NCBI RefSeq assembly: GCF_035917575.1
Contig: NZ_CP109090.1
Coordinates: 806,001-870,000 of the forward strand
DNA from: Streptomyces sp. NBC_01788
Lineage (GTDB): Bacteria; Actinomycetota; Actinomycetes; Streptomycetales; Streptomycetaceae
Reading direction: 5' to 3'
DNA: 64,000 nt
The translations under genes and the position numbers were made by a program. Positions within the stretch are counted from its first letter, which is position 1, and each line of letters opens with the position of its first letter. The notes below the pieces were generated by a model that was not told the DNA's origin, made no database searches, and saw only the letters and a program-made list of their open reading frames with translations. Positions 4,137-20,596 of this stretch are shown here, piece by piece.

Positions 4137-5927
4137 ATGACGACCGACGGCGCGGCAGGCAGAGCAGCAGCAGGCGGGCTGACACGCCGCCAACTGGGCA
4201 GGGGCACGATGGCATTGGGTGGCGCATTGGCGCTCGCGGCCCTGCCCGCGGGACCGGCCGCCGCCGCCCCGGCGAACGGCAGCCCCACCCTGCGGTACGG
4301 ATCCCCCGAGCGGGCCGGTCTGCTGGCCGCCCCGCTGCGCCAACTCGTCGAGGACGCGGAGGCGTTCCTCGGCCCGTCCCCCACGCACCCCTGGTACGCG
4401 GGAGCCGTGCTGCTCGCCGGGCGCGGCGGGACCGTGGCGCTGCACGAGCCGATCGGCATGGCGGTGCGCTACTCGGCGTACGACGAGAAGACCGACACCG
4501 CCGTGGAGTTCCCGGCGGACCGGCGGATCCCGATGACCCGGGACACCGTCTTCGACCTGGCCTCGGTCTCCAAGCTGTTCACCTCGCTGCTCGCGGTGCA
4601 GCAGCTCGAACGGGGCACGCTGGAACTGGAGGGCAGGGTCGCGTCCTACCTCCCGGACTTCGGCCGGGCGGGCAAGCAGGACGTCACCATCCGCCAACTC
4701 CTCACCCACACCTCGGGATTCCGCGCCTGGATCCCGCTGTACGACGCGCCGACGTACGAGGGGAAACTCGAACTCCTCCGCAACGAGGCCCTGATCAACC
4801 CGCCCGGCACCGCGTACCTGTACTCGGACCTGAACATGATCTCCATGCAACTGGTCCTGGAGTCGGTCACCGGGCAGACCCTCGACACCCTGCTGCACGA
4901 GCGGATCACCGGGCCGCTCGGCCTCGACCGCACCCGCTACAACCCGCCCGCCTCCTGGAAGCCGCGGATCGCGGCCACCGAGGACGCCCGCAAACCCTGG
5001 TCGGGCCTGGACCGCGGCCTGGTGTGGGGCGAGGTGCACGACGAGAACGCGTTCAGCCTCGGCGGGGTGGCGGGGCACGCGGGCGTCTTCTCCTGCGCGT
5101 GGGACCTCGCGGTCCTGGGCCGTACGCTGCTCAACGGCGGCGCGTACGGGCGTACCCGCGTCCTGCGGCCGGAGTCGGTGGAGCTGATGTTCACCGACTT
5201 CAACACCGCCTTCCCCGGTGACGCGCACGGCCTCGGCTTCGAGCTCCACCAGCACTGGTACATGGGCGCGATGGCCACTCCGCGCACCGCGGGGCACACC
5301 GGGTTCACCGGCACGTCGCTGGTCCTCGACCCGACCACCGACTCGTTCCTGATCGTCCTCGGCAACTCCGTGCACCCGGTGCGCAACTGGCGCTCCGGCT
5401 CCGCTCCGCGGGTCGCCACCGGCAACGACCTGGCACGGGCCGTACCGGTCCGTGCGACGCGGGGCCGCACGGCGTGGTTCTCCGGGATGGCGAGTTCCAC
5501 GACGGCGACCCTGGCCCTCCCCTCGCTCGACACCTCCGCGGGCGGCGCCCGGCTGCGGTGCGACCTGTGGTGGGACACCGAGCCCGGATCGGACGTGCTC
5601 GTCCTGGAGTGCACGACGGACGGCGGCGCCACCTGGCAGCCGGTGCCGTTCACCACGACGCACCGTGGGGAGGAGCCGGAGCGGCACCCGACGGGCATCG
5701 CCACCGGCTACTCGGGCCGGGTCTGGCACGGCCTCACGGCCGACCTCCCGGCGGCCGGACGGCTGACCCTGCGCTGGCGGTACACGACGGACCGCCTGTA
5801 CGTGGGTCGCGGTGCCTACGTCGACGCCCAGCGGGTCGAGACCGGCCGCGCCGTCCTGTTCGACGAGGCGCGCCCGGCGGACTCGTCCCGTATCGAGGCG
5901 AAGGGCTGGACGGCCTCCGCGGACTGA
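4137..5927 (+). CDS. Secreted (Tat) serine hydrolase, beta-lactamase/class C esterase fold with C-terminal beta-sandwich
   Basis: This 596-residue exported enzyme starts with a twin-arginine signal (LTRRQLGRGTMALGGALALA, then an Ala-rich cleavage site). The beta-lactamase-type domain follows. The Ser-x-x-Lys nucleophile motif is DLASVSKLFTSLL (about residue 145), the second motif is Tyr-Ser-Asp-Leu-Asn and the third is HTGFTGTS. This arrangement fits esterases, D-aminopeptidases and penicillin-binding-like hydrolases. From about residue 450 a separate beta-rich domain (LRCDLWWDTEPGSDVLVLEC and RLTLRWRYTTDRLYVGRGAY) resembles the jelly-roll modules found in immune inhibitor A-type proteases. 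GGGAGG lies 8 nt before the ATG. The substrate is unknown. Confidence 0.85.
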   Translation: MTTDGAAGRAAAGGLTRRQLGRGTMALGGALALAALPAGPAAAAPANGSPTLRYGSPERAGLLAAPLRQLVEDAEAFLGPSPTHPWYAGAVLLAGRGGTVALHEPIGMAVRYSAYDEKTDTAVEFPADRRIPMTRDTVFDLASVSKLFTSLLAVQQLERGTLELEGRVASYLPDFGRAGKQDVTIRQLLTHTSGFRAWIPLYDAPTYEGKLELLRNEALINPPGTAYLYSDLNMISMQLVLESVTGQTLDTLLHERITGPLGLDRTRYNPPASWKPRIAATEDARKPWSGLDRGLVWGEVHDENAFSLGGVAGHAGVFSCAWDLAVLGRTLLNGGAYGRTRVLRPESVELMFTDFNTAFPGDAHGLGFELHQHWYMGAMATPRTAGHTGFTGTSLVLDPTTDSFLIVLGNSVHPVRNWRSGSAPRVATGNDLARAVPVRATRGRTAWFSGMASSTTATLALPSLDTSAGGARLRCDLWWDTEPGSDVLVLECTTDGGATWQPVPFTTTHRGEEPERHPTGIATGYSGRVWHGLTADLPAAGRLTLRWRYTTDRLYVGRGAYVDAQRVETGRAVLFDEARPADSSRIEAKGWTASAD

Positions 5928-6285
5928 GGAAGGACTGAGGAAATCGACACCGGTCGACTTCGATCAATTTCGGCCTTTCCGCACTCGGGAAATTCGCAAC
6001 AATCGCCAACAGCGGAAATAGACGAATGCCGTTCCCCTTCCTTTCCCACAGACCCCATTCAGCTCCCCCACCAGCGACGCGGTAACGGAAATAAAAAGCT
6101 CACGAATACGGGTCCCATCCGCATCACGGGCGATAATGTGAATCCGCAACCGGATGGGGGATTCCGGGATCTGCGATCAGTCATGGCTGCCTCTGTGTCA
6201 GGGCCGTTCCGTGTCTGAAACATGTGCGACAACGGTCGCCGGCCGCCTCCGCGGCCGCCGGCGGCCGTATCGGGGGTGAGGAACA
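5928..6285 (+). promoter_or_regulatory. AT-richer leader/promoter region of the five-gene NTPase system
   Basis: This 358-bp gap is clearly lower in GC than its surroundings between about 5940 and 6180 and has no convincing gene. It carries a short inverted repeat, ATCCG-CAAC-CGGAT, at 6142-6155 and ends in a good ribosome site (GTGAGGAACA) before the GTG at 6286. It is the only sizeable AT-rich stretch ahead of the operon and so the likely main promoter. I could not fix a -35/-10 pair. Confidence 0.45.
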
Positions 6286-8148
6286 GTGCAGTCGGACCAC
6301 GGTGCGAAGACCGGGGCGGCCGACCTTCGGGCCGCGCTCCGCGTCGCGGACCTGCTGGCCGGCGGGCCCGCCACGCGCGGCACGGAACCGGACGGCGAGC
6401 GGGGCGAGCCGCCGGCGCCGCCCGACCGGCACCGGGTGGCGCGGCTCCTGTCCGCCGCGGCCCCGCCGCCCGTCCACGCCTGGCGATCCGCCTGGGAGGA
6501 CGTGCTCGCCGAGGAACGCGCCGGGCGGTCGCCGGCGGGCCTGGGCTGGGTACTCACCCGCCTCGCTTCCGGCGCCTTCCCGGCCCTGGACGTACTGGAG
6601 GTCGGCTGTGAGCGGCTGCGCCTGAACCGGCTGGCCTACGGACCCGGCGCGACCGGTCCGGAGCTGATCCGACTGGCCGAGTCGTCCTGGACCGAACTGG
6701 CCCCCGCCTCCGCGGTGCTCCCGCGGGAGCGGCCGGGCCGGCTCTTCCTCCTCGCCGGCGGGAAGACCGGCGCCACGGCCGGGGTCGACGCCGCCCTGCG
6801 GACCTCTCTGGCCTCCTTCGCGCGGACCGGGCACCGCGATCCGACCGAGCCGCTCGTGCTCGCCGTCAGGGCCGCCGGCTGGCAGCCGCTGGAGCGGGCG
6901 GCCGAGGCGGTGCGGGCGGAGTCGGGCGCGCTGCTGTGCCTGCGGCTGCCCGCGCACTGGCCCCTGGCGCCGGAGGACCTGACGGGCGAACTGCCGCTGC
7001 GCACCACGGTGTGGCTCGCCGCCGCCCACGTCGACGGCGCCTCGGGGACGGTGGGCCTGGTGCGCCGGCCACTGTTCCCCGCGGGCAGCCGCGCGGACGG
7101 GCGTACCGCCGCCGGACCCGTCGTGCGGATCCCTGTCACCGCGCCGCCGCCCGGCGCGACCACCGGCGAGAGCGTCGCCGCCGTCGTCGCCGCCGGGCGG
7201 GACGAACCGGCGTCCCGGTGGCGCTCGCTGCGCATCGACCGGCTCGTACTGCCGCCCGGCTCCCGGACCACGCTGTCCTACTCCCTGCACGGAAGAAGCC
7301 GGGTGGAACTGCGCTACGACGGCCACCACGAACCCGAGACCTCCCCCTGGCCCGCGCTGGCCTCCGGGACGCCCCAGCAGCTCTCCCGGCCCTGCCCGGT
7401 CGACCTGATGGTCGCCGTCGAGGTCTCCGGGCCGCAGTCCGACGGGGGCACCGCGGTCGAGGAGCGCCTCCAGGAGGCCGCGGCCGTCGTCATCGCCGTA
7501 CAGGACGCCGTCGGCGGCGACGACACGCTCCGGGTGGGCCTGATCGGCTACCGCGACCACGACCCGCTCCACGGGCCGCGCGACCACGACCCCGTGGTGC
7601 ACCGGGTCGGGATGTCGGCGGCGCCGGACGCCGCGCGGGCGCTGGAGTCCTGGCGCCCCTGCCCCCTGCGGCACGACTTCGCCACGGGGCTGGAGCACGT
7701 GCCCGGGGAACTGCCCGGGTGGCGCCACCAGTGGCGGGCCGACAGCCACCGGGTGCTGCTCGTGGTCGGCTCCCGGCCGCCGCATCCGCGGGCCCGCCCG
7801 CCCCAGGTGCTGCGACGCGGCGCACCCGTGCGCATCTGCCCCGACCGGCTGGACTGGCAGGCCGAACTGGACGCGGCACGCCACCACGAGGGCGTCGCCT
7901 GCGTGGCCGTCGTCGACGAACCGGCGTGGATGGACGAGCTGGTGGGCGAACCCCATCTGGCGCACTGGGCGGACCACGCCTGGGGCGCGTTCGGCACCGA
8001 GGGGCGGTTCGACGCGGGGCACGACCCGCGGCAGATCGCCGCCGTCGTCGCGGCGCCCTCGCTGTGCCTGCCGCAGGACGGCGCGCCGATCCGGCTGGTC
8101 GTCGCCGACGGCACGACCGCCGACTGGCAGCACGCCGTGGCCGGCTGA
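6286..8148 (+). CDS. vWA-like protein of the GTPase-associated system (degenerate MIDAS)
   Basis: This 620-residue cytosolic protein has no signal or membrane segment. The N-terminal half is helical and unrecognised (for example PPPVHAWRSAWEDVLAEERA). The middle is beta-rich. The C-terminal 200 residues look like a von Willebrand A fold: first strand CPVDLMVAVEVSGPQSDGG, a helix EERLQEAAAVVIAVQDAV, a strand LRVGLIGYRDHD and a later strand HRVLLVVGSRPPHP. The metal-site motif DxSxS is not intact (VEVSG), so metal binding is doubtful. GTGAGGAACA precedes the GTG start. It is first in a run of five same-strand genes with a P-loop GTPase, GAP1-like protein, second vWA protein and kinase. It may act as the core partner or substrate adaptor. 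The vWA call is inference from strand pattern. Confidence 0.65.
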   Translation: MQSDHGAKTGAADLRAALRVADLLAGGPATRGTEPDGERGEPPAPPDRHRVARLLSAAAPPPVHAWRSAWEDVLAEERAGRSPAGLGWVLTRLASGAFPALDVLEVGCERLRLNRLAYGPGATGPELIRLAESSWTELAPASAVLPRERPGRLFLLAGGKTGATAGVDAALRTSLASFARTGHRDPTEPLVLAVRAAGWQPLERAAEAVRAESGALLCLRLPAHWPLAPEDLTGELPLRTTVWLAAAHVDGASGTVGLVRRPLFPAGSRADGRTAAGPVVRIPVTAPPPGATTGESVAAVVAAGRDEPASRWRSLRIDRLVLPPGSRTTLSYSLHGRSRVELRYDGHHEPETSPWPALASGTPQQLSRPCPVDLMVAVEVSGPQSDGGTAVEERLQEAAAVVIAVQDAVGGDDTLRVGLIGYRDHDPLHGPRDHDPVVHRVGMSAAPDAARALESWRPCPLRHDFATGLEHVPGELPGWRHQWRADSHRVLLVVGSRPPHPRARPPQVLRRGAPVRICPDRLDWQAELDAARHHEGVACVAVVDEPAWMDELVGEPHLAHWADHAWGAFGTEGRFDAGHDPRQIAAVVAAPSLCLPQDGAPIRLVVADGTTADWQHAVAG

Positions 8149-8155
8149 CAAGGAC

Positions 8156-8290
8156 GAGGCCGGCAAGGAACCAGGCCAACGAGGGCCCGAGGCCGACGAA
8201 GGCCGAATTCGACGAAGACCGAGGCCGGCGAAAACCCAGGCCAACGAGGGCCCGAACCCGATGAGGACCGGGGTCGGCGCGGGTCTCGCC
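8156..8290 (+). repeat. 65-bp imperfect direct repeat between genes 1 and 2 of the system
   Basis: Two tandem copies with a period of 65 bp fill the gap. A 9-mer GAGGCCGGC occurs at 8156 and 8221, and a 20-bp identical block (CCAGGCCAACGAGGGCCCGA) occurs at 8171-8190 and again at 8236-8255. The remainder is diverged. The region has no open reading frame of its own on the coding strand. It could be an expanded linker, a regulator site pair or an mRNA element between the two cistrons. Confidence 0.75.
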
Positions 8291-8373
8291 CACACCGGGG
8301 CGCGCGTGTGCGCGGACCGGACCACCATCGCGCGGCGGACGACATCCGCCGCCCATCGAGCGGGAGCACATCC

Positions 8374-9753
8374 ATGGTCGACGACGACGCGCGGTCCGAG
8401 CGCACAAAGGACGCCGAACCGGACCGCAGGCAACAGGACCGTGAGCAGGGGCCGTTGGACGTCCTGGGCAGGTCCACCCTCGTCGGGGGTCTGGCCGCCC
8501 TGCCCCCACCGCCGACCGCCCCGCCCGCGGCCGCGCCCCTGCGTCCCCGCCCGGGCCCCCCGGGCTCGCGGCAGGACCGGGCACGCGCGACCACTCCGCC
8601 CGCGCCCCGGTCCGCGCCCGAGGACGGGGCGCTGCCCAGCGTCTTCCTGGAGAAGGTGGACGAGCCGGCCGCGCCCGCACGCGCCGAAAAGCCCGCAAAG
8701 TCCGGCCGGAACGGGTCCTCGGAAAAGCGCGAGAAGCAGGAGGCGCCCCCTCAGGAGCCGGAGGACCAGTCCTCCTCGCCCGAGTCGACGATCACGCTCT
8801 GGGGCGGTATGCAGAGCGGCAAGTCCACGCTGCTGGCCGCCCTTTCCCGGGCCGTGCAGGACCCGCTGTACGGAAAGTGGACCATCTATCCGGACGACCA
8901 CGCCTCCCAGAAGTTCCTGGGCGACCTGGCACGCCTGCTGTACCGGGAGCGCAAGTTCCCCAACGCGACGCTGACCGAGCAGCGCCCCGTCCGCTTCACC
9001 CTGGCCGGCGACCTCACCGGTACCCGCTACTCGCGCGCCGGACGCAGACTCTTCCGGCGCGGCGCCGAACGCGCACGCGACCTGACGGAGTTCAAGGTCA
9101 CCGTCCGCGACCTGCCCGGGGAGGCGTTCGACCTGCGCTCGCAGACCGGAGCAGCCTACGGAAGCAGGCTGATCAAGGACCTCGGTGCCGCGCGGGCCAT
9201 GGTCTACGTGGTCGACCCCGTCCGCGAGTGGCAGGTCAACGGCGACGACGGACCGGTGACCAAGGACGCCCGGCAGAACGCGGACTTCTTCACCGAGGTC
9301 CTCGGCGGGGTGGCCACCGAGATCAACATGCGCCGTGAGCGCCAGGGCAACTTCCTGCCGCACAGCATCGCCGTGTGCCTGGCGAAGTTCGACGACGACC
9401 GCGTGTTCCGGTTCGCCTGCGAACAGGGCAACGTCCGGGTCAACCCGCGTACCAGGCAACCCGAGGTCATGGACGCCAAGCGGCTGTTCGACGGGCTGTG
9501 CAACGCGTTCCCGCACGGCAGCCTGCGCGAGATCCAGCAGCAGATCGAGCAGTTCTTCGCGCCCGAACGCGTCGGCTACTTCGTCTGCTCCGCCGTCGGT
9601 TTCTGGGTCGACCCGGACCGGGGCTTCGACTTCGAGAACCCGTACCTGATCAACCACGTCGAGGACAGCGTGCGCTTCGTGGCGCCGCCCAGGCCCGTCA
9701 ACGTCCTCGAACCGTTCCTCTTCCTGCGGGGCTTCGGCCCCACGCAGTCCTGA
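8374..9753 (+). CDS. Double-GTPase-type P-loop protein
   Basis: This 459-residue protein starts with about 135 residues of Pro/Ala/Lys-rich, disordered tail. The globular part opens with ITLWGGMQSGKSTLLAALSR, a Walker A loop (GGMQSGKST, Lys150). Later segments include FKVTVRDLPGEAFDL, a switch-like DLPGE motif, and RAMVYVVDPVREW, a strand followed by DP. These features fit the Double-GTPase/DO-GTPase families of TRAFAC-like NTPases known from GTPase-centred bacterial conflict systems. The ATG at 8374 has CGGGAG 9 nt upstream. The gene is 37 bp before the GAP1-like gene, consistent with an operon. The expected role is a nucleotide-dependent switch. The exact family is inferred by motif and gene context. 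Confidence 0.7.
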   Translation: MVDDDARSERTKDAEPDRRQQDREQGPLDVLGRSTLVGGLAALPPPPTAPPAAAPLRPRPGPPGSRQDRARATTPPAPRSAPEDGALPSVFLEKVDEPAAPARAEKPAKSGRNGSSEKREKQEAPPQEPEDQSSSPESTITLWGGMQSGKSTLLAALSRAVQDPLYGKWTIYPDDHASQKFLGDLARLLYRERKFPNATLTEQRPVRFTLAGDLTGTRYSRAGRRLFRRGAERARDLTEFKVTVRDLPGEAFDLRSQTGAAYGSRLIKDLGAARAMVYVVDPVREWQVNGDDGPVTKDARQNADFFTEVLGGVATEINMRRERQGNFLPHSIAVCLAKFDDDRVFRFACEQGNVRVNPRTRQPEVMDAKRLFDGLCNAFPHGSLREIQQQIEQFFAPERVGYFVCSAVGFWVDPDRGFDFENPYLINHVEDSVRFVAPPRPVNVLEPFLFLRGFGPTQS

Positions 9754-9790
9754 TCCGGCACCCGAACACCCGCATGAGGAAGGACACGCC

Positions 9791-12382
9791 ATGGCACCGG
9801 GGCTGATCGCCGACTGGGCCGTGTGGGGCAAGGAGCCCCACACCAGCAGCGGATACGGGGTCCTCGTCGCGCACCCGCCCGGCCGCAGCGCCGAGTTCAA
9901 CGCCGCCGTCCACCACTGGTCGCCGGGTACTCCGGAGCCCGGCGACCCGTTGCCGTGGATCACCATGGGCTGCGCCAGAGGCGTGGACGGAGCCCGCGCG
10001 GTCGGGGTCTTCGTGCTGGACCGCACGGCCGACGTGGACGGAAGCAACCGCGCGATCTACCGGATCACCCACTTCGCCGTCCCCTACGCGGAGGTGGGCG
10101 CGGCGGGCATCGGCTGGTGCGCACTGGCCCGCGCCGCCCACGCCGCCGCCGCGGGCCTGCCCGGCACCGGCGAGGGACCCGCGCGCCTGGCCTTCCGCGA
10201 GGAGGACCTGCTGGTCACCGATGTCGGCCACAACATCACGCCTTCGGTCTCGGAGCGCACCCGGTGGCTGGCGGCCGCCGCGGCCCATCTGCTGGACGGC
10301 CCGGTGGCGGTGACCGGCGACCGCCACCACGAGCCGTTCCAACTGCTGCGCGTCCTGGACTCCGTGGCCGCCCTGCTGCCCTTCGGCATGCGCAGCACCC
10401 TGTCCGCGGCCAGTTCGACATCCTCCGGCTCCGAGGTGCCCATGCGCCTGTACTGGGGTGAAGCCGAGGGCTCTCCCGGGGTGACCGCCCTGCCGGTGAG
10501 CGCCTCGCTGCCCGATCTCAGCGAGCTGTCCCCTCAGGCCCGCGGCTACCACGACCTGCTCATCGACAACTGGGCCACGCACGGCGGAGAGGCCGTCGTA
10601 CGGCATCTCGCCGACGCCCGGGAGCCGTTGGACATCGCCGGGCCCGACGCGCACGAGAGGGCGCTGGAGGTGCTGGCGGCCCTGGACCCGTCGCTGGCGG
10701 TCGCCCAGGCCGTCACCGCGGGCCAGGACGTGGACGCCGACCGGATCAACCAGGCCCTGCGCATGCCCGACATCAGTTCCAGAGCGCTCGCCGTCCTCGC
10801 GGGGAAGGCGCTGACCCATCCGCACACCGGAATGGAGGCACTGGCGCCCCTGATGTCGAGTCCCGAGGTCTCCCAGGCCTACCGCGACCAACTCTTCGCC
10901 GATCTGCTCCACGGGCGGACGGACGTGGCCCGCCGCGACTTCGAGAGCATGCGCGCCGCCCTCACCTCCACCGGGCAGAGCCTGGCCCCCCTGGACGAGG
11001 TCCTGGCCGGCGCCCTGGACGAACTCCGGGTCCGCTGCCCGCAGGGCGTGCCCGATCCCGTGACCGAGGGGCTGTTGCCCGCCGTCGCTCCGTTCAGCGA
11101 GGGCACCATGCGCTTCACGCACTCCATGCTGTGCCAGGTGCCCGGCCTCGCGGGCGGCCTGGTCCGGTCCCTGTACGCGGAGGCCGAACCGGGCGCCCTC
11201 GTCCGCGCCTGGCTGCGATGGCTGTGCGGCGAAGCCGGGCCCGAGCAGCGTACGGAGATCGCCGGAGGCGCCGAACTCCCTCTGCTGAACACCCTGTTGA
11301 GCACCGGCACCGGTCCGGCCGAGGCCGACCGGAAATGGGCCGCGGGCCACCCGGAGGCGGCGGCACGTCTGCTGGAGGGCGCCGTCGTCTGCGGCGCCGT
11401 CGACCAGGTCCTGCTGCCCGGCTTCTTCCAGGGGCTCCTCGACCGCGTGCTCCGCTCCCCCGCCGCGGCGGACGGCACCCCCCGGTCGCCGCTCCTGCGC
11501 ACACTGGGCCGGCCACCCGCCCGGATGCGTCCGGAGACGGCGGCCCACTGGGACGTGCTGTGCCTCCTGGCCGGTCTGCCGCCGTCAGGCTTCCTCAGCC
11601 TGGCCGCGACCGCGCCGCAGCCCGGCACCGTGGGCGTGACGGGACGGGTCGACACCTATGTCTCGACGCTGCGGGCGGCGCTTCAGACGCGCCCCGCGCA
11701 CCAGCACGCGCCCGCCGTGGTCGACCTGCTGCTCGACCGGGCCCTGTCGGTGGACAGGGCCACCGGTGCCGGTCCGGGGCAGGCCGGCCGCGACCTCGCC
11801 TGGCATCTGTCGCACTGGCCCGGACCCTTCCAGCAGATCGTCCTGGACGCCGTGTACCGGCTCGCCACCGAGGAGCCGCACTGGCGCGAGACGTCCGAGG
11901 ACCGGCGGTGGCTCATGCGCGTCGCGGACCGCCTGCCGTCCCTGCGGCCCCTGATCGGCCTGCGCCAGGTACACGGCCTGGCGTCGCGGTGCTCGGGCAC
12001 CCCGGAGGACTGCGAGAAGCTGGCCGTGCAGGTCTGCGGGGCACGACGGGCGGGCGCCGCGAACAACCAGCTCGCCGCCGCCCTGCAGCACTGGGCGGCC
12101 CACGGACGCGTCGGCGAACGCGTCCTCACCCTGCTCGAGGCCTACGAGCAGATCTGGACCTCCTACGACGCGACCGGCCGTGCCTCCGAGGAGCGCGAGG
12201 ACCTGGAGCTCGCCCTCATCCGGTGCAGCACCGGCCACCGGATCTGGGCCCAGTACCGCGAGCACGCGATCGGCCGGCAGACACAGCTCAAGGACGACCT
12301 CGACCGGCAGCGCCGGCAGTGCGAGCGGGAGATCAGCCGACTGCGCAAGCTCGACGCCGTCGCCGCCCGCGCCCGTACCTGA
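9791..12382 (+). CDS. GTPase-associated protein 1 (GAP1)-like protein
   Basis: This 863-residue cytosolic protein begins ADWAVWGKEPHTSSGYGVLV with the N-terminal beta-rich module of GAP1-like proteins (YRITHFAVPYAEVGAAG nearby). A long helical middle region and a final coiled coil (LKDDLDRQRRQCEREISRL) follow. It carries no known catalytic motif. It directly follows the P-loop GTPase gene with a good ribosome site (AGGAAGGACACGCC). GAP1 proteins are defined by their linkage to these GTPases and are thought to couple the switch to effectors. The assignment rests on N-terminal similarity and on gene order. I would expect protein-protein interaction through the helical middle and the coiled coil. 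Confidence 0.7.
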   Translation: MAPGLIADWAVWGKEPHTSSGYGVLVAHPPGRSAEFNAAVHHWSPGTPEPGDPLPWITMGCARGVDGARAVGVFVLDRTADVDGSNRAIYRITHFAVPYAEVGAAGIGWCALARAAHAAAAGLPGTGEGPARLAFREEDLLVTDVGHNITPSVSERTRWLAAAAAHLLDGPVAVTGDRHHEPFQLLRVLDSVAALLPFGMRSTLSAASSTSSGSEVPMRLYWGEAEGSPGVTALPVSASLPDLSELSPQARGYHDLLIDNWATHGGEAVVRHLADAREPLDIAGPDAHERALEVLAALDPSLAVAQAVTAGQDVDADRINQALRMPDISSRALAVLAGKALTHPHTGMEALAPLMSSPEVSQAYRDQLFADLLHGRTDVARRDFESMRAALTSTGQSLAPLDEVLAGALDELRVRCPQGVPDPVTEGLLPAVAPFSEGTMRFTHSMLCQVPGLAGGLVRSLYAEAEPGALVRAWLRWLCGEAGPEQRTEIAGGAELPLLNTLLSTGTGPAEADRKWAAGHPEAAARLLEGAVVCGAVDQVLLPGFFQGLLDRVLRSPAAADGTPRSPLLRTLGRPPARMRPETAAHWDVLCLLAGLPPSGFLSLAATAPQPGTVGVTGRVDTYVSTLRAALQTRPAHQHAPAVVDLLLDRALSVDRATGAGPGQAGRDLAWHLSHWPGPFQQIVLDAVYRLATEEPHWRETSEDRRWLMRVADRLPSLRPLIGLRQVHGLASRCSGTPEDCEKLAVQVCGARRAGAANNQLAAALQHWAAHGRVGERVLTLLEAYEQIWTSYDATGRASEEREDLELALIRCSTGHRIWAQYREHAIGRQTQLKDDLDRQRRQCEREISRLRKLDAVAARART

Positions 12383-12465
12383 ACGAGGCACAGCCCGACG
12401 AGCGCGAACCCCACGACATACAACGCACGACGCACAACCGCACGACACCAGGGGGACACCACCTC

Positions 12466-14058
12466 ATGCCCACCACCCGGGCCACGGCCCACCGAGCCGC
12501 GCTGCTCGCCCTCGCCTTCCTGCTGGCCCTGTGCGGCGCGGCGCCCGCCGCGGCCGCGGACCCACCGGTGCCACGCGACGACATCTACCGCTCGCTGAAG
12601 GTCGACGACGTCCCGGCGGCCTACGTCGTCCTCGTCGACGTCTCCAGCTCCATGCAGGACCGGGGCCCGGACGGCGTACCGCTCTACACCACGGTCAAGC
12701 GGCGCCTGGCCGACTTCCTCGACTCGCTGACGCCCGCCGACCAGGTGGCCGTCGTCACCTTCGGCCGGGCCACCGGGGTCGTCCACCCGATGTCCCCGGC
12801 GAACCGCACCGACGGCCTGTTCACCAAGGAACTCCCCCAGTCCGCCAAGGAGTCGGCGAGCGACCACGGCGCCGCGCTGGACGCCGCCGCCGACCAGCTC
12901 GACCGCAGCACGGCCCCGGTCGGGGCGGTGCTGATGCTCACCGACGGCGCCGTCAACGCGCCGGGCAGCCCGTTCGCCAAGCTGGGCAGCACGGCCTGGC
13001 AGCGGCTGAAGTCGCGCTTCGCCGCACTGGGCGAGGACCGCAAGATCATGGGCTACGGGCTTCCGCTCGCCGAGGGCACCGGGGTCGCCGAGGTGCTTGG
13101 CGGCGCCTTCGGCGCCCCGCGCATCCTGCCGGTCGACCCCACGGCCCTCGGCTCGCAGCTCAGCGCCGCCAAGGACCAGGTCCGCACGCAGAAGGCGGTG
13201 TCCCTGCTCCGCGCCGACCAGGGCGGCGCGGTCACCGTGTCGGTCGCCGGGGAGGGCGTGAGCGGAGCGGGCGGCGCACATGTCGCCGTGGCCACCGGGG
13301 ACCGCACCGGCGCCCGCACCCGGAAGCTGCGGGTGACGCTGGAGTCGAAGGCCACGCACGTGCCGCTGACGGTCCGGCTGACGGCCACCGGGGACACCGG
13401 CGGTCCGCGGCTGACCCCGGACGGACCCACCGCGCCCGTCACCCTGCGCCCGGGTGAGAAGAAGACCGTGCCGATGACGCTGACCTGGCGTCAGGAGGCC
13501 CGGTTCAGCCTGTTCCCCGGCGCCGGCGACTTCCGGGAGCGGGTGGGCCTGCGCGCCGAGATCTCCTCGGCGTGGACGACGACGGTCCGCGGTTCCCTCG
13601 GCGAGTCGAAGTTCTCCACCGGCGAGCCGGTCGTCACCGCGCTGGACCTGCGGGGCACCGTGCCCGGACGGCCGCCCGGCTGGCTCTACCCCCTCGTACT
13701 GCTCGTCCTGCTGCTGGGCTCCGCCCTCGTCTGGCGGGTCCACCGGCAGCGCAACCCCGAACTCGGCGGGCTGCTGGTCGTCACCGACCTACGGACCGGG
13801 AACCGGCAGACGATCCCGCTGCGCGGCCGGGAGGTCAGCGAGGAGACGGACGCCGGGCAGGTGCGGGCCCGGATCACCGTACGCGGCCGGCAGGAGGCCG
13901 GACGCGCGGTCCTCGTCCTGCGGTGCGAACGCGACGCCCCGCGCGCGGGCGGGGAGCGGCTGCGCGACACCGGCACCTGTGAGCTGGGCAAGTCCACCGT
14001 GCTGTGCGGCATCGGGTTCTCCCACGAGACGGAGAACGAGGCGGCCGTCCTTCAGTGA
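12466..14058 (+). CDS. Secreted/membrane-anchored vWA protein with intact MIDAS
   Basis: This 530-residue protein has an N-terminal signal peptide (LLALAFLLALCGAAPAAAA). A von Willebrand A domain follows, with a complete metal site: DVSSS (Asp58, Ser60, Ser62), a later Thr in LMLTDGA and a conserved Asp. After a beta-rich region (VSVAGEGVSGAGG, VTLRPGEKKTVPMTLTW) there is one membrane helix near residues 405-427 (WLYPLVLLVLLLGSALVWRV) and a roughly 105-residue cytosolic tail. The topology puts the vWA domain outside the cell and the tail near the kinase. The start at ATG 12466 follows CAGGGGGACACC. It could bind an extracellular or periplasm-side ligand and report inward. It is not a MoxR-associated vWA, because no MoxR AAA gene is nearby. 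Confidence 0.85.
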   Translation: MPTTRATAHRAALLALAFLLALCGAAPAAAADPPVPRDDIYRSLKVDDVPAAYVVLVDVSSSMQDRGPDGVPLYTTVKRRLADFLDSLTPADQVAVVTFGRATGVVHPMSPANRTDGLFTKELPQSAKESASDHGAALDAAADQLDRSTAPVGAVLMLTDGAVNAPGSPFAKLGSTAWQRLKSRFAALGEDRKIMGYGLPLAEGTGVAEVLGGAFGAPRILPVDPTALGSQLSAAKDQVRTQKAVSLLRADQGGAVTVSVAGEGVSGAGGAHVAVATGDRTGARTRKLRVTLESKATHVPLTVRLTATGDTGGPRLTPDGPTAPVTLRPGEKKTVPMTLTWRQEARFSLFPGAGDFRERVGLRAEISSAWTTTVRGSLGESKFSTGEPVVTALDLRGTVPGRPPGWLYPLVLLVLLLGSALVWRVHRQRNPELGGLLVVTDLRTGNRQTIPLRGREVSEETDAGQVRARITVRGRQEAGRAVLVLRCERDAPRAGGERLRDTGTCELGKSTVLCGIGFSHETENEAAVLQ

Positions 14059-14104
14059 CCCCTCCCCCGGCGGGCCGCGGAAGGCCCCGAGAAAGGACGT
14101 CGAC

Positions 14105-16051
14105 ATGGTGATGCCCCTGGACCCGGACGGGGATCCGGCGGAGGCCGCCGGGTTCCGGCTGCTGGGCAGACTGGGCACGGGCGGGTTCGGCACGGTCTAC
14201 CTCGGCCGGCGGCCCGGCGACCGGCACGGGCCGGACACGCTGGCGGCCGTGAAGCTGCTCAAGCACGAGTTCACCGAGGACGCCCAGCACATGCAGCGCT
14301 TCCACCAGGAGAGCAAGGCGCTGGAACGGTGCAGGGGCGCGCGGATCCCCGAGCTGCTCGCGCTCGACTTCGCGGCCGGCCGGCGGCCCACGCTGGCCAC
14401 CCGGTTCATCCCCGGTCTGTCGCTGTACCGGGTCGTGGAGGCGCACGGCGGCCCGCTGCCCCGCGACACGGTGCACACGCTCGCCGCCGAACTCCTCGAC
14501 ACCCTCGGCACCGCGCACCGCAAGGGGCTGCTGCACCGGGACCTGCACCCGGGGAACATCCTGCTGACCCACGACGGGCCGTGGATCATCGACTTCGGGC
14601 TCACCCGGATCCGCGGCCAGCGGGTCACGCTCACCCTCGACATGGTCATCGGGCAGCCCCACTTCTGCGCCCCCGAACAGGTGCGGGGGCTGGCCAGGAC
14701 CGGGCTCGCGACCGATGTCTTCGCCTTCGCCGGCATCGTCCTGTACGCCCTCACCGGCCACCCGCCGTACACCGCAGAGGACGACGCGCGGGCCATGCTG
14801 GTGCGCCGGGTGAGCGGGGCCGCGCCCGATCTGTCCAGGCTGCCGGACGACGCCACGGGCCGACTGATCCGTGCCTGTCTGGCCGAGGATCCGGCCGACC
14901 GCCCCCACCTGGACGAGGTCGTCGACGGCTTCGGCCGGCCGGGGGCACTGCGGCTGCCCGAGGGGGTGGGCCGCACCCTGACCGCGTACCGCACCGAACT
15001 GCGGGACTTCCTGGCCGGGGTGGGCAACGCCGCGGATCTGACGGTGCCGTTCCGTCCGGGGCGGCGCAGTTGGAGCGCCGGTGTCGGGGAGTGGCCGCAG
15101 TGCGTCGTGGCCACCGAGGAGGACGGGGTGGTCGTGGCCGACGGCGGGGGCGCGGTGCGCTGGCTGGACGCGGCCACGGGCGCGGAGAAGGTGTGCCGGC
15201 CGGACTTCACGGCTCCGGTGCAGCTGTGCGCGGACGGCGACGTGCTGCTGGTGTGCGACGCCGACGGGCGGCTGGAGTCCTGGGACACCCGGGAGCACCG
15301 CCTGTGGTGGTCCTCGACGGCGGGCGGACTCGCCCAGGCGCGGGTGCTGCTGCGCGGGCGGAGCGTGTTCCTCGGCGACGCGACCGGCCGGCTGCACCAC
15401 TTCGACGCGGTGACCCGGCGTCTGTGGTGGGAGACCGATCCGCTCACCGACACCTCGGGCGCCCCGGCCGTCCCGGTGGTGGTCGGGGCCCGGCAGGTGT
15501 ACCTGTCGGCCGTGCGGGGCGCGGAGATCCTCGCCGTCGACGACGAGGACGGCGCCCTGGCCTGGAAGGCACCGGTACGGCTGCCGGCCCCGGTCCTGGC
15601 GCCGCCGCTGCCGCTGGAGGAGCACCTGGTGGTCGCGGACGGCGAGGGCACGCTGAGGTGCCTCGCGGCCGTCGACGGTTCCGCCGTGTGGGAGGTCCGG
15701 CTCGGCGCGCCGGTGGTGGCCGCGCCGGTCAGGGTGCTCGACACGGTGGTCGTCGGGGACGTCGCGGGCACGGTCCACTGCCTGGGCGCGGCGACCGGCG
15801 AGCCGGTCTGGCGCGCGCACCACGGGGAGCGCGAGGAGTTCTTCGCCCTGTGCTCCGACGGGGCCGCGGTGTACGCGGGCGGCTGGAGCGGACGGCTCCA
15901 TCTGCTGGACGCGGCGGACGGCGCGTCGCTCCAGAGCTTCGACCTGGGCGGCCAGATCCTGGCCACGGCCTGCTCCCCCGGCGCCAACAGCATCCACGCC
16001 GCCTCCTCGGGCGGCACCCTGCACACGCTGCCGGCCGCGGCGGTCCGGTAG
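14105..16051 (+). CDS. Ser/Thr protein kinase with C-terminal PQQ/WD-like beta-propeller
   Basis: This 648-residue soluble protein has a Hanks-type kinase domain at about 15-270: glycine-rich loop LGTGGFGTVYLG (23-34), Lys50 in AAVKLL, catalytic HRD at 144-146 (LLHRDLHPGN) and DFG at 163-165. A region of about seven PQQ-like beta-propeller blades follows, with repeats such as DGGGAVRWLDAATGAEKVC, DATGRLHHFDAVTRRLWWE, and DVAGTVHCLGAATGEPVW. There is no membrane helix, unlike PknB-type kinases. It is the last gene of the five-gene run, 46 bp after the vWA gene, with GAGAAAGGACGTCGAC before ATG 14105. Kinase-propeller fusions typically sense a ligand or protein and phosphorylate partners. The likely targets are the other cluster proteins. 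Confidence 0.9.
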   Translation: MVMPLDPDGDPAEAAGFRLLGRLGTGGFGTVYLGRRPGDRHGPDTLAAVKLLKHEFTEDAQHMQRFHQESKALERCRGARIPELLALDFAAGRRPTLATRFIPGLSLYRVVEAHGGPLPRDTVHTLAAELLDTLGTAHRKGLLHRDLHPGNILLTHDGPWIIDFGLTRIRGQRVTLTLDMVIGQPHFCAPEQVRGLARTGLATDVFAFAGIVLYALTGHPPYTAEDDARAMLVRRVSGAAPDLSRLPDDATGRLIRACLAEDPADRPHLDEVVDGFGRPGALRLPEGVGRTLTAYRTELRDFLAGVGNAADLTVPFRPGRRSWSAGVGEWPQCVVATEEDGVVVADGGGAVRWLDAATGAEKVCRPDFTAPVQLCADGDVLLVCDADGRLESWDTREHRLWWSSTAGGLAQARVLLRGRSVFLGDATGRLHHFDAVTRRLWWETDPLTDTSGAPAVPVVVGARQVYLSAVRGAEILAVDDEDGALAWKAPVRLPAPVLAPPLPLEEHLVVADGEGTLRCLAAVDGSAVWEVRLGAPVVAAPVRVLDTVVVGDVAGTVHCLGAATGEPVWRAHHGEREEFFALCSDGAAVYAGGWSGRLHLLDAADGASLQSFDLGGQILATACSPGANSIHAASSGGTLHTLPAAAVR

Positions 16052-16068
16052 CGCGGCGTGCGGGAAAC

Positions 16069-16084
16069 GGGGACACGGGTCCCC
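16069..16084 (+). terminator. Possible short hairpin after the kinase gene
   Basis: An inverted repeat GGGGAC-ACGG-GTCCCC (6-bp stem) lies 18 bp after the kinase stop. It is short and may only be weakly terminating. The duplicated segment that follows (16091-16280) is the more obvious structure in this gap. Confidence 0.3.
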
Positions 16085-16090
16085 TGCCCG

Positions 16091-16280
16091 CCGCAGCGGT
16101 GCACATCATCGCGATCCGGTGGCGCACACCCACGCACCGTCAACGGCCCGGCCCCGAACCGCGGCCGCCCCCGCGCCGTGCAGAAGGGAGCCCGGACTCC
16201 GGACTCCCACTCGCCGCGGCGGCGCACACCACCGCGATCCGGGGGCACGCAGCCACGGACGGCCGGCGGGCCAGGCCGCA
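16091..16280. repeat. Duplicated ~70-bp segment, 123-bp spacing
   Basis: Two related copies of about 65-70 bp lie in the convergent gap between the kinase and the oxidoreductase genes. Copy one starts at 16091 (CCGCAGCGGTGCACATCATC...) and copy two at 16214 (CCGCGGCGGCGCACACCACC...). Both continue with GCGATCCGG(T/G)GGC and a degenerate tail. No gene is credible here. It may be a repeat expansion or a fragment of a duplicated 3' region. Confidence 0.65.
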
Positions 16281-16350
16281 TCCGCCCGCGCGCCGGCCGT
16301 CACCCTCCCGGGCGCGGGGCGCCGACCCGCCTCGCGGGGGGCGTGCGTCG

Positions 16351-17919
16351 TCAGTCGTCGCGCTCTTCGAGTACCGCCATCGCGGCGTTGTGGCCCGGTA
16401 CGCCGCTGACTCCTCCGCCGCGTACCGCGCCCGCGCCGCACAGGAGGACGTTGGCCTGCCGGGTTTCCACGCCCCAGCGGCCGGTGCCCTCCTGGGCCCA
16501 GGGCCAGCTCAGAGCGCGGTGGAAGATGTTGCCGCCGGGCAGACGCAGGTCCCGTTCCAGGTCCAGCGGGGTCTTCGCCTCGATGCAGGGCCGGCCGTCG
16601 GCGTCGGTGGCCAGGCAGTCGGCGAGTGGTTCGGCGAGGTGGGCGTCGAGCTGCGCGAGCGTGGACTTCAGCAGTTCCTCGCGTACGGCGTCGTTGTCCC
16701 GGGCGAAGAGCCGGGCGGGGGTGTGCAGGCCGAACAGGGTGAGTGTCTGGTAGCCCTGTTCGACCAGGCCGGGGCCGAGGATGGTGGGGTCGGTCAGGGA
16801 GTGGCAGTAGATCTCGGAGGGCGGCGCGGCGGGCAGCTCGCCCACGGCGGCCCGGGCGTGGGCGTCGGCGAGCTGCCGGTACCCCTCGGCGATGTGGAAG
16901 GTGCCGGCGAAGGCCTCGCGCGGGTCGACCGCGGTGTCCCGGAGCCTGGGCAGCCGCTTGAGCAGCATGTTCACCTTGAGCTGGGCGCCCTCGGCGGGCT
17001 CCGGCGGCTCCTCGCCGGTCAGCGCGGCCAGGGCCTGCGGGGAGGCGTTCACCAGCACGTGCCGGGCGCCGACGGTGCCCTCGCCGTCGCGGGTGCGGTA
17101 CGTGACCTCCGCCGCGCGCCCGTCGCTCACCACCCGTACCGCCTCGTGGCCGGTGGCGATGACGGCCCCGGCCCGGCGGGCCGCGGCGGCGAGCGCGTCG
17201 GTCAGGGCGCCCATACCGCCGACCGGCACGTCCCAGTCGCCGGTGCCGCCGCCGATCACGTGGTACAGGAAGCAGCGGTTCTGCGCGAGGGACGGGTCGT
17301 GGGCGTCGGCGAAGGTGCCGATGAGGGCGTCGGTGAGGACCACGCCCCGTACGAGGTCGTCGGCGAAGCGGTCCTCCACGGCGACGCCGAGCGGCTCCTC
17401 GAACAGGATCCGCCAGGCCTCCTCGTCGTCGACGCGGCGGCGCAGTTCCTCGCGGGTCGGCAGCGGCTCGGTGAGCGTCGGGAAGACCCTGCGGGCGAGG
17501 CGTCCGGTCATGCCGTAGAAGCGCTGCCAGGCCTCCCACTCGCGGTCGGAGCCGGTGAGCCGGGCGAAGGCCTCGCGGGTGCGCTCCTCGCCGCCGCCCA
17601 CGAGGAGTCCGGTGGGCCGTCCGCCGCGCTCGACGGGCGTGTACGAGGAGATCGTGCGGGTGCGCAGCCGGACGTCCAGGCCCAGGTCCTGGACGATCTT
17701 CCGGGGCAGCAGGCTGACCAGGTACGAGTAGCGGGACAGCCGGGCGTCCACGCCGGCGAACGGGCGAGTGGAGACGGCGGCGCCGCCGGTGTGGTCCAGC
17801 CGCTCCAGCACGAGCACCGACCGTCCGGCCCGGGCCAGGTAGGCGGCGGCGACCAGCCCGTTGTGCCCTCCGCCGACGATGACGGCGTCGTACGTACCGT
17901 GTCCCTGGTGTGCGCTCAT
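16351..17919 (-). CDS. FAD-dependent oxidoreductase, PYROXD2/phytoene-desaturase-like
   Basis: This 522-residue flavoprotein starts with a GxGxxG Rossmann fold (AVIVGGGHNGLVAAAYLARAG), the FAD ADP-binding site, then SVLVLERLDHTGGAA. The C-terminal part has the FAD-linked motif VLLCGAGAVRGGGVSGVPGHN. The total length and layout match PYROXD2 and bacterial phytoene-dehydrogenase-like proteins, cytosolic enzymes that oxidise or isomerise hydrophobic polyenes. No carotenoid gene cluster is present, so I leave the substrate open. ATG 17919 has AAGGACC before it. The gene is convergent with the kinase gene and co-directional with the TPR kinase (60 bp upstream end-to-start). Confidence 0.85.
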   Translation of the reverse strand: MSAHQGHGTYDAVIVGGGHNGLVAAAYLARAGRSVLVLERLDHTGGAAVSTRPFAGVDARLSRYSYLVSLLPRKIVQDLGLDVRLRTRTISSYTPVERGGRPTGLLVGGGEERTREAFARLTGSDREWEAWQRFYGMTGRLARRVFPTLTEPLPTREELRRRVDDEEAWRILFEEPLGVAVEDRFADDLVRGVVLTDALIGTFADAHDPSLAQNRCFLYHVIGGGTGDWDVPVGGMGALTDALAAAARRAGAVIATGHEAVRVVSDGRAAEVTYRTRDGEGTVGARHVLVNASPQALAALTGEEPPEPAEGAQLKVNMLLKRLPRLRDTAVDPREAFAGTFHIAEGYRQLADAHARAAVGELPAAPPSEIYCHSLTDPTILGPGLVEQGYQTLTLFGLHTPARLFARDNDAVREELLKSTLAQLDAHLAEPLADCLATDADGRPCIEAKTPLDLERDLRLPGGNIFHRALSWPWAQEGTGRWGVETRQANVLLCGAGAVRGGGVSGVPGHNAAMAVLEERDD

Positions 17920-17979
17920 GGTCCTTCGTAACACGCGGTGATCCACATCGGCCAGGGTGCGGTCAAGGCGGATCGGCGC

Positions 17980-20226
17980 CTACGGCCCGTCGGCCGCGCG
18001 CTGCCCGCGCAGGACGGCGACCCTGCGGTACAGCTCTGCGGCCTCCTGGCCGCGGCCGAGTTGTTCCAGGCAGTGGGCCTCGTCGGTGCGGCTGGCGAGG
18101 GTGTCGGGGTGGCCGGCGCCCAGGACGCGCTCGCGGGCCCCGGCCACCGCGCGGTACTCGGTGAGCGCGTCGGCCCAGCGGCCGAGCCAGCCGAGGCTCA
18201 CGGCGACCTCACGGCGGCTGACGAGGGTGTCGGGGTGGTCGGCGCCGAGCACGCGGCCGCGGATCGCGCACACGTCGCGGGACTCCGCGAGGGCCTCCTC
18301 CCAGCGGCCGAGCCGGCCGAGGTTGACCCCGAGACCGTGGCGCGCGCGCAGGGTCTCGGGGTGCGCGGGTCCGTGCACCCGAGTGCGGTCGTCGATCAGG
18401 GCCCGGTACAGCTCCAGCGCCTCCGCGCTGCGCCCGAGCCGGCCCAGGCTGATGCCGACCTCGTAGCGGGCGGCCAGGGTGTCGGGGTGGTCGGCGCCGA
18501 GCGCACGGGTACGTGCCCCGGCGACCTCGCGGTAGGTGTCCAGAGCCTCCGCCCACCTCCCCAACTGCCCTAGGGCGTAGGCGACTTCGAATCTGGTGAC
18601 CAGGGTGTCGGGGTGCTGCGGCCCGAGCACCCGGGCGCGGGCGGCGGCAACCTGGCAGGCCATGCGGTACGAGTCGTCCGGGCGGCCGAGGCGGCTGAGG
18701 CTGAAGGCGAGGTTGTGCCGGCAGCGCAGGGTGTCGGGATGGTCCGGGCCCATGGTGCGCTCGCGCGCGGCGAGCACCGCCGCGTACACCTGGTGCGCGT
18801 CGAAGTGGCGGCCCAGGCGGCCCAGTACGTACGCCATCTCCTGGCGCACGGCGAGCGTGTCCGGGTGGTCGGCGCCGAGCGCCCCGATGCGCGCCTCGGC
18901 CACCTGCTTGTACTCCCGCAGCGCCTCGGCCGGACGACCGGTACGGCTGAGGCCGAAGGCGTATTCGTAGCGGCCGGCGAGAGTGTCGGGGTGGTCGGGG
19001 CCGAGGAGGCGGGCCCGCTCGTCGGCGATGGCCCGGTGTGCCTCGCACGCCTCTTCCCAGCGGCCGAGCCGTCCGAGGCTCAGGGCCGCCCGGTGCCGGT
19101 CGGTCAGCGCCCTGACGGCCTCCGGGGCGGGGACGGGCCGTCCGCCGGGCGTCCGCCCGGTCTCCGCCGGGCCGTCCGTGGCGGTGCGCGGGGTCCACTC
19201 GCCGGTCAGGCCGGCCGCGTCGGCCGGGGGTGCGGTGCGCGGGGCCGCGCCGGCCGCCTTGTGACCGGTGGTCATGCCGCGTGTCCACGACGGCAGCCGG
19301 GCGTCACGACCGGCCGGTTCGGACGGGCGCGGCCGTGGGAGCGGGGTGACCATGGTGGGCGCGTACCGCGGCACCGGCGTGCGGCCGGCGATGATGCGGC
19401 GGCTCAACGCGTGTGCGTCGTCGGGCCGTTGCTCGGGCAGTTTGGCGAGCAGGTCGAGGATGATCCGCTCCAGGTACCCGGGGAGTTCGGCGCGTTGACG
19501 GCGGGGCGGTTCGGGCGGGGTGTCGCGGTGCCCGACGAGGATCGCCCAGGCGTCGTCGAAGTCGAACGGTGGTGTCCCGGTGGCGAGTTCGTACAGCACA
19601 CAGCCCAGCGAGTACAGGTCGCTGCGCTGGTCGACCTCGGTTCCGCCGATCTGTTCGGGCGACATGTAGTGCGGGGTGCCCATGGCGACGCCGGTGCCGG
19701 TCAGGCGGGCGGTGAAGCCGATGTCGTGGCCGAGCCGGGCGATGCCGAAGTCGCAGATCTTCACCGTCCCGTCGGTCAGGCGCATGATGTTCGCCGGTTT
19801 CAGATCCCGGTGCACGATGCCCTGTTGGTGGGTGTAGGCGAGGGCCGCGGCGACCTGTTCGGCGATCTCGACGATGTCGGGCACGGCCAGCGGCCGGTGG
19901 TCGTTGTCCTCCAGCAACTGTCCGAGGTTGCGGCCGTCGAGCATCTCCATCACCAGGTAGAGCACGCCGTCGGACTCGCCGAAGTCGTGGACGACGGTCA
20001 CACCCCGGTGCTGGAGCGCGGCGGCCACCCGGGCCTCGCGCCGGAACCGCTCGCGCAGCACCCGGGTGAAGGACGGGTCGCGCTGGGGGCCCAGCGGCTT
20101 GAGGCACTTCACCGCGACATGGCGGCCCAGCGACTCGTCCCGCGCCCGCCACACCTCGCCCATGCCGCCCCGGCCGATGGTGTCGAGCAGCCGGTAACGG
20201 CCCTGGATCAGCATGGTGTCCGACAT
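17980..20226 (-). CDS. Ser/Thr protein kinase with C-terminal tetratricopeptide repeats
   Basis: This 748-residue protein has an N-terminal Hanks kinase domain (glycine loop IGRGGMGEVWRARD, Lys40, HRD 139-141 in VHRDLKPANI, DFG 159-161, APE-region MSPEQ). A proline-rich linker follows (residues about 290-370). The rest is made of about eight TPR-like units of 42 residues, each ending in the signature GxDHPDTLxxRxE(x)AxxLGRLGR. Their DNA repeats with a 126-bp period between about 18030 and 19050. No membrane helix is visible. The start is ATG 20226; the ribosome site is weak (GGCGGCGCGAG), so MLIQGR (4 residues in) is an alternative. Such kinases recruit protein partners through the TPR arm. 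This gene is separate from the five-gene operon but might be a related module. Confidence 0.9.
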   Translation of the reverse strand: MSDTMLIQGRYRLLDTIGRGGMGEVWRARDESLGRHVAVKCLKPLGPQRDPSFTRVLRERFRREARVAAALQHRGVTVVHDFGESDGVLYLVMEMLDGRNLGQLLEDNDHRPLAVPDIVEIAEQVAAALAYTHQQGIVHRDLKPANIMRLTDGTVKICDFGIARLGHDIGFTARLTGTGVAMGTPHYMSPEQIGGTEVDQRSDLYSLGCVLYELATGTPPFDFDDAWAILVGHRDTPPEPPRRQRAELPGYLERIILDLLAKLPEQRPDDAHALSRRIIAGRTPVPRYAPTMVTPLPRPRPSEPAGRDARLPSWTRGMTTGHKAAGAAPRTAPPADAAGLTGEWTPRTATDGPAETGRTPGGRPVPAPEAVRALTDRHRAALSLGRLGRWEEACEAHRAIADERARLLGPDHPDTLAGRYEYAFGLSRTGRPAEALREYKQVAEARIGALGADHPDTLAVRQEMAYVLGRLGRHFDAHQVYAAVLAARERTMGPDHPDTLRCRHNLAFSLSRLGRPDDSYRMACQVAAARARVLGPQHPDTLVTRFEVAYALGQLGRWAEALDTYREVAGARTRALGADHPDTLAARYEVGISLGRLGRSAEALELYRALIDDRTRVHGPAHPETLRARHGLGVNLGRLGRWEEALAESRDVCAIRGRVLGADHPDTLVSRREVAVSLGWLGRWADALTEYRAVAGARERVLGAGHPDTLASRTDEAHCLEQLGRGQEAAELYRRVAVLRGQRAADGP

Positions 20227-20596
20227 CTCGCGCCGCCCCCGTCGCCGTGTACCCCGCCTCTCCGGGCCGTGCCCGGCGTCCGGGCCGCCCCCTGGCCCCG
20301 TCCCGGCACCGGCCTGATCCGCGGGAGGGCCCCCGTCCAGTATGGCGAGCGACCGCCCGGCTTTGTACGGTGCGGAACGGACCCGGGGGCGCGGAGCTCC
20401 GGGTACGCGCGCCGCCCCGGGGGCGAGCCCGAACTGCACATCCCACCGTGCGAAATGACCCCGTACGAGGCGCCGGACGTCTGCGGCACCGCCCGCCGGG
20501 CCCCGTCCCGGCCCGCCCACCAGCGCTGATGCAAGGGCCCAGAGGAGGGACGAAAATGGGCAACGTACCTGATTCCCAAGCGAAAGGGAGCCAGTA
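20227..20596. other. Divergent intergenic region between the TPR-kinase and the small secreted-protein gene
   Basis: This 370-bp stretch shows no credible gene on either strand. It has a promoter-like low-GC patch only near 20540-20596 (GGGCAACGTACCTGATTCCCAAG). It includes the ribosome site GAAAGGGAGCCAG, 4 nt before the ATG at 20597. No operator symmetry was found. Confidence 0.5.

Follow-up and report, generated by a model that had tools for sequence, protein, structure and literature searches.

Five adjacent genes on the chromosome of Streptomyces sp. NBC_01788, here called g1 to g5, raise the question of whether they form a single signaling system and to which known systems they are related. 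They lie in a window of 64,000 nucleotides (positions 806,001 to 870,000 of contig NZ_CP109090.1; G000:C1:806001-870000), part of the 8.27-Mb chromosome. A sequence-only reading of this window had described five co-directional genes separated by 225, 37, 83, and 46 bp and had interpreted them as a GTPase system of the DO-GTPase/GAP1 type. The open frames on the + strand agree exactly with that arrangement. The interpretation is partly supported: the kinship of the GTPase with DO-GTPases and the joint occurrence of the genes in Streptomyces are borne out, and the likeness of g3 to GAP1 is borne out in part.

GTPase-centric conflict systems built on DO-GTPases and GAP1 proteins, including a third theme of GAP1-N2 systems, have been described by Kaur et al. 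(2020, PMC7159879). Judged by homology, g2 belongs with the DO-GTPases, as the sequence-only reading had proposed, despite scoring below the Pfam cut-off for PF19993, DO-GTPase2 (12.9 versus 27 bits). We place it there because a profile of 31 family members matched, over its full length, 13 canonical DO-GTPases encoded upstream of canonical GAP1-N2 genes (hhalign probability 99.2, P 2.6e-19, 261 columns; reversed control, P 0.06) and because 26 of the 31 members, the window protein included, match DO-GTPase2 at E<=0.1 (best, 9.7e-7). The profile alignment runs end to end and takes in a common C-terminal motif of the type RPxNVLEPxLxL. Alignment with the second, downstream canonical GTPase was less complete (P 3e-10); between the upstream and downstream canonical sets, the match had P 1e-19. 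For ten PF03029 GTPases encoded in the source genome, the alignment covered 24 P-loop columns only (P 0.0007). PF19993 itself is carried by two relatives found by protein search (P0059 and P0060).

The window protein has all four GTPase motifs: G1, GMQSGKST (145); G3, DLPGE (246); G4, AKFD instead of NKxD (337); and G5, SAVGF (406). Across the family, the P-loop was found in 30/31 members, G5 in 29/31, and G4, by search pattern, in 23/31. At the position of the Walker B glutamate, members show E, G, R, T, and other residues, and the pattern found no motif in nine of the 31. The source genome holds one match to the g2 GTPase domain. The sequence-only reading had also given this P-loop GTPase a long disordered tail; the low-complexity stretch is instead N-terminal (about residues 1 to 135).

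To follow the five genes through the genus, we used g3, which was found in 13 of 295 Streptomyces genomes, full length in ten. All five families occur together in every one of these 13. The nine full-length loci besides the window hold g1 to g5 in the same order and on the same strand, and strain CB01373 (L005) carries the set at 97 to 99% identity. At L033, the g1 alignment starts only at residue 202, and L034, which shares its contig with the named record L006 (S. zinciresistens K42), is truncated within g5 by the end of that contig. At L040 to L042, the five families are all present but in divergent form and in a different order; in L042, the g5 match takes in just the propeller part and lies at the end of a contig. 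L040 and L041 have in addition a second GTPase and a second g3-type N-domain next to a VMAP-C or AAA gene. Streptomyces sp. NBC_01558 also carries a full set, on a linear plasmid of 678 kb; three of its five products are annotated by NCBI as hypothetical proteins.

The five-gene set is gained or lost as a block. Downstream of g5 lies an FAD (flavin adenine dinucleotide) oxidoreductase gene that is near-universal in the genus (263/291 genomes at E 1e-100). In 14 genomes lacking g3, we examined the 15 kb extending from the 3' side of this gene. None of these stretches matched g1 to g5, and 12 of them contained the beta-lactamase-family (blaC-like) gene that precedes g1 in the window. The ends of the FAD and beta-lactamase-family matches are 47, 35, and 23 bp apart in L190, L191, and L194, respectively, and 0.3 to 2.9 kb apart in the other nine; in the window, this space is taken up by g1 to g5 with their spacers. 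Given the complete co-occurrence, the empty site, and the full set on a linear megaplasmid, g1 to g5 are one unit in the genus Streptomyces.

Coordinates of the five genes and related features in the window
Feature	Position	Strand	Description or basis
g1	6286..8148	+	620 aa, soluble; vWA-like C-terminal part (about residues 370-560), degenerate metal-ion-dependent adhesion site (MIDAS)
g2	8374..9753	+	459-aa GTPase, relative of DO-GTPases
g3	9791..12382	+	863-aa probable regulator, longin/DENN-like N-terminus in model
Longin-like domain of g3 (residues 9-120)	9815..10150	+	model secondary structure
g4	12466..14058	+	530-aa membrane protein, vWA with intact DVSSS
g5	14105..16051	+	648-aa soluble Ser/Thr kinase with PQQ-type beta-propeller
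Stretch with g1-g5, missing at the same site in relatives	5928..16350	.	FAD/blaC-like borders of the comparators

Outside the genus, we sampled 19 genomes of the same class, counting within the stretch read at each locus. None holds all five families at one locus, which counts against full generality of the set. The GTPase adjoins a g3-type frame in 18/19, g1 is present in 12/19, and a g5-like kinase is present in 7/19 at E<=2e-20 and more weakly in 2 others; six genomes have two GTPase-g3 pairs at one locus. The wider core is the GTPase plus g3, often with g1, and the kinase and the membrane vWA protein complete the set in Streptomyces. A DUF4407 membrane protein is found in 15 of the 19 genomes and g4 in 3, with both in one and neither in two (one of these on a short contig). 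Such near-complete avoidance of one another suggests that either membrane protein can take the place of the other; at the 14 Streptomyces loci (13 distinct, L006 being L034), g4 is present and no DUF4407 occurs within the stretch read.

Other genes accompany some of these relatives. A protein with TIR and EAD1 is encoded beside the GTPase at two loci of one genus (L125:10805-12451 and L127:10379-11896, no g3 being found at L127), and PP2C occurs at one scanned locus (L119) and, by BLAST cluster, at a second of the same genus; both are partners described for conflict systems (PMC7159879). A penicillin-binding protein lies near the loci of three relatives. Large unknown proteins recur near the GTPase at four to five loci (L124, L129, L131, and L133), one of them with a below-cut-off FtsW/RodA match. 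At L116 to L120, two GTPase-g3 pairs face each other across about 0.4 to 4.9 kb, and within the longer g3 copy, part of the N-terminal module of that copy is matched a second time.

What is the large partner of the GTPase? The sequence-only reading had called g3 a GAP1-like coiled-coil protein. In the structure model, residues 9 to 120 follow a longin-like strand/helix order (bb-a-bbb-aa), residues 121 to 312 form a DENN-like part that looks abbreviated, residues 313 to 814 form a helical solenoid, and residues 815 to 861 form a long C-terminal coiled-coil helix, in agreement with the second half of that description. This predicted longin/DENN-like fold is a better description of g3 than GAP1 likeness. 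In the VIA list for the model, TagF, whose longin likeness is already published (PMC3325213), ranks 27 and the FLCN complex ranks 39 (root mean square deviation 27.5, not usable); many helical-repeat rows covering residues 312 to 826 rank above both. A BFVD search gave no match at E<=0.001, its rows being mostly repeat proteins, and sequence searches of solved structures with the g1, g2, and g3 profiles returned nothing at E<=0.001.

As for GAP1, no family of that name matched the window g3 at E 1 in Pfam. Of 30 family members, 9 gave a GAP1-M match, always below cut-off (best E, 0.013); in a rescan of ten members it was seen in six, and for five of these the match lay at frame residues 159 to 278 with E<0.25. 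The comparison of the g3-family and GAP1 profiles scored 23.7, next to 23.2 for the best of 60 decoys and 23.1 for the unrelated g1 family; phmmer searches of g1 to g4 against the frames of 20 canonical GAP1-N2 loci gave no match at 1e-3, g2 included. With Pfam, phmmer, and hhalign all short of significance, we did not adopt a GAP1 identity by direct sequence comparison; what favors it is the pooled weak GAP1-M matches and the alignment register. We offer only tentatively the idea that the GAP1-like partners of bacterial DO-GTPases may be GTPase regulators of the longin/DENN type. Comparison of ten loci showed g3 to be, at every one of them, the protein of the five least identical to its counterpart (at one locus, 57% versus 81 to 84% for g2 and g5), which fits the expectation for a sensing part.

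Only g4 and g5 have Pfam matches above cut-off; a single-sequence Pfam scan gave none for g1, g2, or g3, and no family came near its cut-off for g1. The C-terminal part of g1 has a weak profile-profile match to vWA (120 columns, score 28.8, P 0.004; best of 60 decoys, 25.2), on which its vWA-like character, proposed in the sequence-only reading, depends. The MIDAS of g1 reads VEVSG in place of DxSxS, and the C-terminal part of this protein also has a conserved PPHP motif. Degeneracy of the metal site is a family trait: of 15 aligned sequences, the window protein among them, 14 carry Glu for the first Asp, and the serines are largely gone. A zinc-ribbon-like CPVC...CxxC motif is present at the N-terminus of the family consensus but not in the window g1. 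A structure model of g1 was poor (pLDDT 36) and was not used.

The descriptions of g4 as a secreted, membrane-anchored vWA protein and of g5 as a soluble Ser/Thr kinase with a propeller both agree with our results. In g4, a signal-peptide-like N-terminus is followed by the vWA domain (about residues 54 to 165; VWA_2, 36.7 bits, cut-off 27; VWA, 25.4 bits, cut-off 23.8), a stretch with weak Ig-like Pfam matches, and a C-terminal tail; hydropathy indicates one transmembrane-like stretch near residues 402 to 426. All 12 Streptomyces sequences checked, a set without L040, keep the DxSxS motif. In g5, the Pkinase match (103.7 bits, residues 19 to 273) includes HRDLHPGN and DFG, the propeller is C-terminal, and hydropathy shows no transmembrane-like stretch. 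An HRD-type motif is present in 10/11 g5 sequences and DFG in 9/11, L040 and L041 lacking one or both by the search patterns.

Is there an effector? As the sequence-only reading had stated, none was recognized among the five genes, the TIR-EAD1 proteins being confined to some relatives. A Pfam scan of ten neighboring window frames, on which PADLOC was not run, showed no defense gene. In PADLOC, g5 matched a large number of kinase models (PD-T4-6 the best, at 8.7e-43), which a kinase domain would be expected to do, and g2 matched LeoA at 0.056; nothing was found for g1, g3, or g4. A phage collection had no match to g3. We looked for an effector elsewhere in the source genome and discarded this option for the two families searched genome-wide: EAD1 gave no match, and DUF4407 reached 15.7 bits (cut-off, 31.3).

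On balance, we lean toward a membrane-coupled switch of the DO-GTPase type, both inherited and exchanged among Streptomyces as a five-gene cassette and likely serving as an alarm for envelope attack or infection. From its topology, g4 would display an extracellular vWA domain and carry a signal across the membrane. The homology and motifs of g2 suggest a GTP/GDP switch, whose nucleotide state would be set by the N-terminal longin/DENN-like module of g3 gripping it, as either a guanine nucleotide exchange factor or a GTPase-activating protein; the solenoid and coiled coil of g3 may detect the trigger or serve as a scaffold for the complex. Lacking a working metal site, the soluble g1, the second vWA-like protein, is probably a fixed adaptor, and the active-looking kinase g5 may relay or tune the switch. 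With no effector recognized at the locus, output would run via the kinase or via host proteins.

Most of these mechanics are common to another explanation, which differs in the trigger: a module for envelope integrity or cell wall stress, rather than immunity, in which the vWA domain senses wall or membrane damage and the GTPase and kinase adjust envelope repair. The predicted fold of g3 resembles TagF; in type VI secretion, the PpkA/PppA/TagF pathway is part of the response to membrane damage (PMC10482370); a role in membrane stress has been predicted for DO-GTPases encoded in psp operons (PMC11237479); a kinase, PP2C, and vWA turn up repeatedly in relatives; and the cell wall-related matches noted above lie near some of their loci. 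Yet the patchy distribution (13/295), the cassette insertion, and TIR-EAD1 at two loci fit conflict better than housekeeping, and we consider this explanation rather unlikely. Still less probable is a scaffold-assembly system, with g2 and the solenoid protein g3 forming a membrane-bound polymer or complex and the kinase controlling its assembly. The long solenoid and coiled coil in the g3 model would suit this role, which Kaur et al. (PMC7159879) suggest for GAP1-N2 systems, but the Pfam matches of the five proteins include no tubulin, HSP70, or FNIII family. A regulator of development or antibiotic production, like the AfsK kinases or conservon GTPases of Streptomyces, seems very improbable: the host is a Streptomyces and the kinase and propeller of g5 score 184 bits against the AfsK model, but the cut-off of that model is 1,300 bits, the PF03029 GTPases, which we take to be the conservon ones, share the P-loop only, and 282 of the 295 Streptomyces genomes have no g3 match.

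How does the putative switch compare with known systems? As in the third theme of GAP1-N2 systems (PMC7159879), a DO-GTPase homolog is followed by a large partner protein in actinobacteria, and the set includes an active-looking kinase, vWA proteins, and a membrane component; some relatives add PP2C, paired GTPases, or TIR-EAD1. Unlike in those systems, g2 and g3 miss the Pfam cut-offs, the kinase is fused to a propeller, the zinc-ribbon motif sits in the g1 family consensus and not on this GTPase, no fn3 family (FNIII) is among the Pfam matches of the five proteins at E 1, and PP2C is absent from the five genes, the ten scanned neighbors, and the Streptomyces set. The threonine-phosphorylation module of type VI secretion (PpkA, PppA, TagF, and Fha; PMC10482370 and PMC5995506), in whose membrane-damage response the kinase PpkA, the phosphatase PppA, and the repressor TagF act, likewise links a Ser/Thr kinase with a longin-like regulator, and PP2C occurs in some of our relatives. 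However, no secretion system, FHA family, or sequence similarity was found here, and the longin-like protein adjoins a GTPase gene. PpkA also carries a vWA domain.

The predicted fold of g3 residues 1 to 312 and the GTPase partner recall the eukaryotic DENN-domain Rab regulators DENND1 and DENND10, although no sequence similarity was detected and the DENN part here looks shortened. The DENN module has been described as arising in the eukaryotic stem (PMC3521125). MglA/MglB and the Streptomyces conservons also pair a bacterial GTPase with a longin-related (roadblock) partner (PMC3521125); the PF03029 alignment is confined to the P-loop, and the partner here, at 863 residues, is far larger.

These results extend DO-GTPase systems, known in the searched papers from comparative genomics only, to a divergent branch, widespread in the class, that escapes current profile cut-offs. 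The searched literature, which covered few subscription papers or bioRxiv preprints, yielded no experimental study of a DO-GTPase; the term appears in Kaur et al. (2020) and in the psp survey (PMC11237479). The partner protein gains a testable biochemical role, that of a GTPase regulator of longin/DENN shape, and the fold, if right, bears on the origin of DENN-type regulation of GTPases. If GAP1-like proteins are of this type, they and their GTPases would be a bacterial counterpart to the GTPase-DENN pairing that runs eukaryotic membrane traffic, one that would work in envelope-linked conflict signaling on mobile cassettes of multicellular actinomycetes.

We also considered mutual exclusion with canonical GAP1-N2 systems. 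The 31 PF20013-positive genomes include none of G000, G034, G084, G087, and G095, but with five genomes, and only some of the negatives covered, the sample is too small, and the idea was set aside. At the left border of the insertion, the beta-lactamase-family gene (4137-5927, + strand) encodes a protein with an InhA-like MAM domain, the first part of which alone is matched in L033. The interval between this gene and the FAD gene holds 1.7 to 2.9 kb of other DNA in six genomes (L182, L184 to L187, and L189) and is perhaps an insertion hotspot. On the other side, the FAD gene (16351-17946, opposite strand) adjoins a gene for a 918-residue Ser/Thr kinase with many TPR repeats (17980-20736, - strand), which is not part of the five-gene set because it accompanies the FAD gene in genomes with and without the set.

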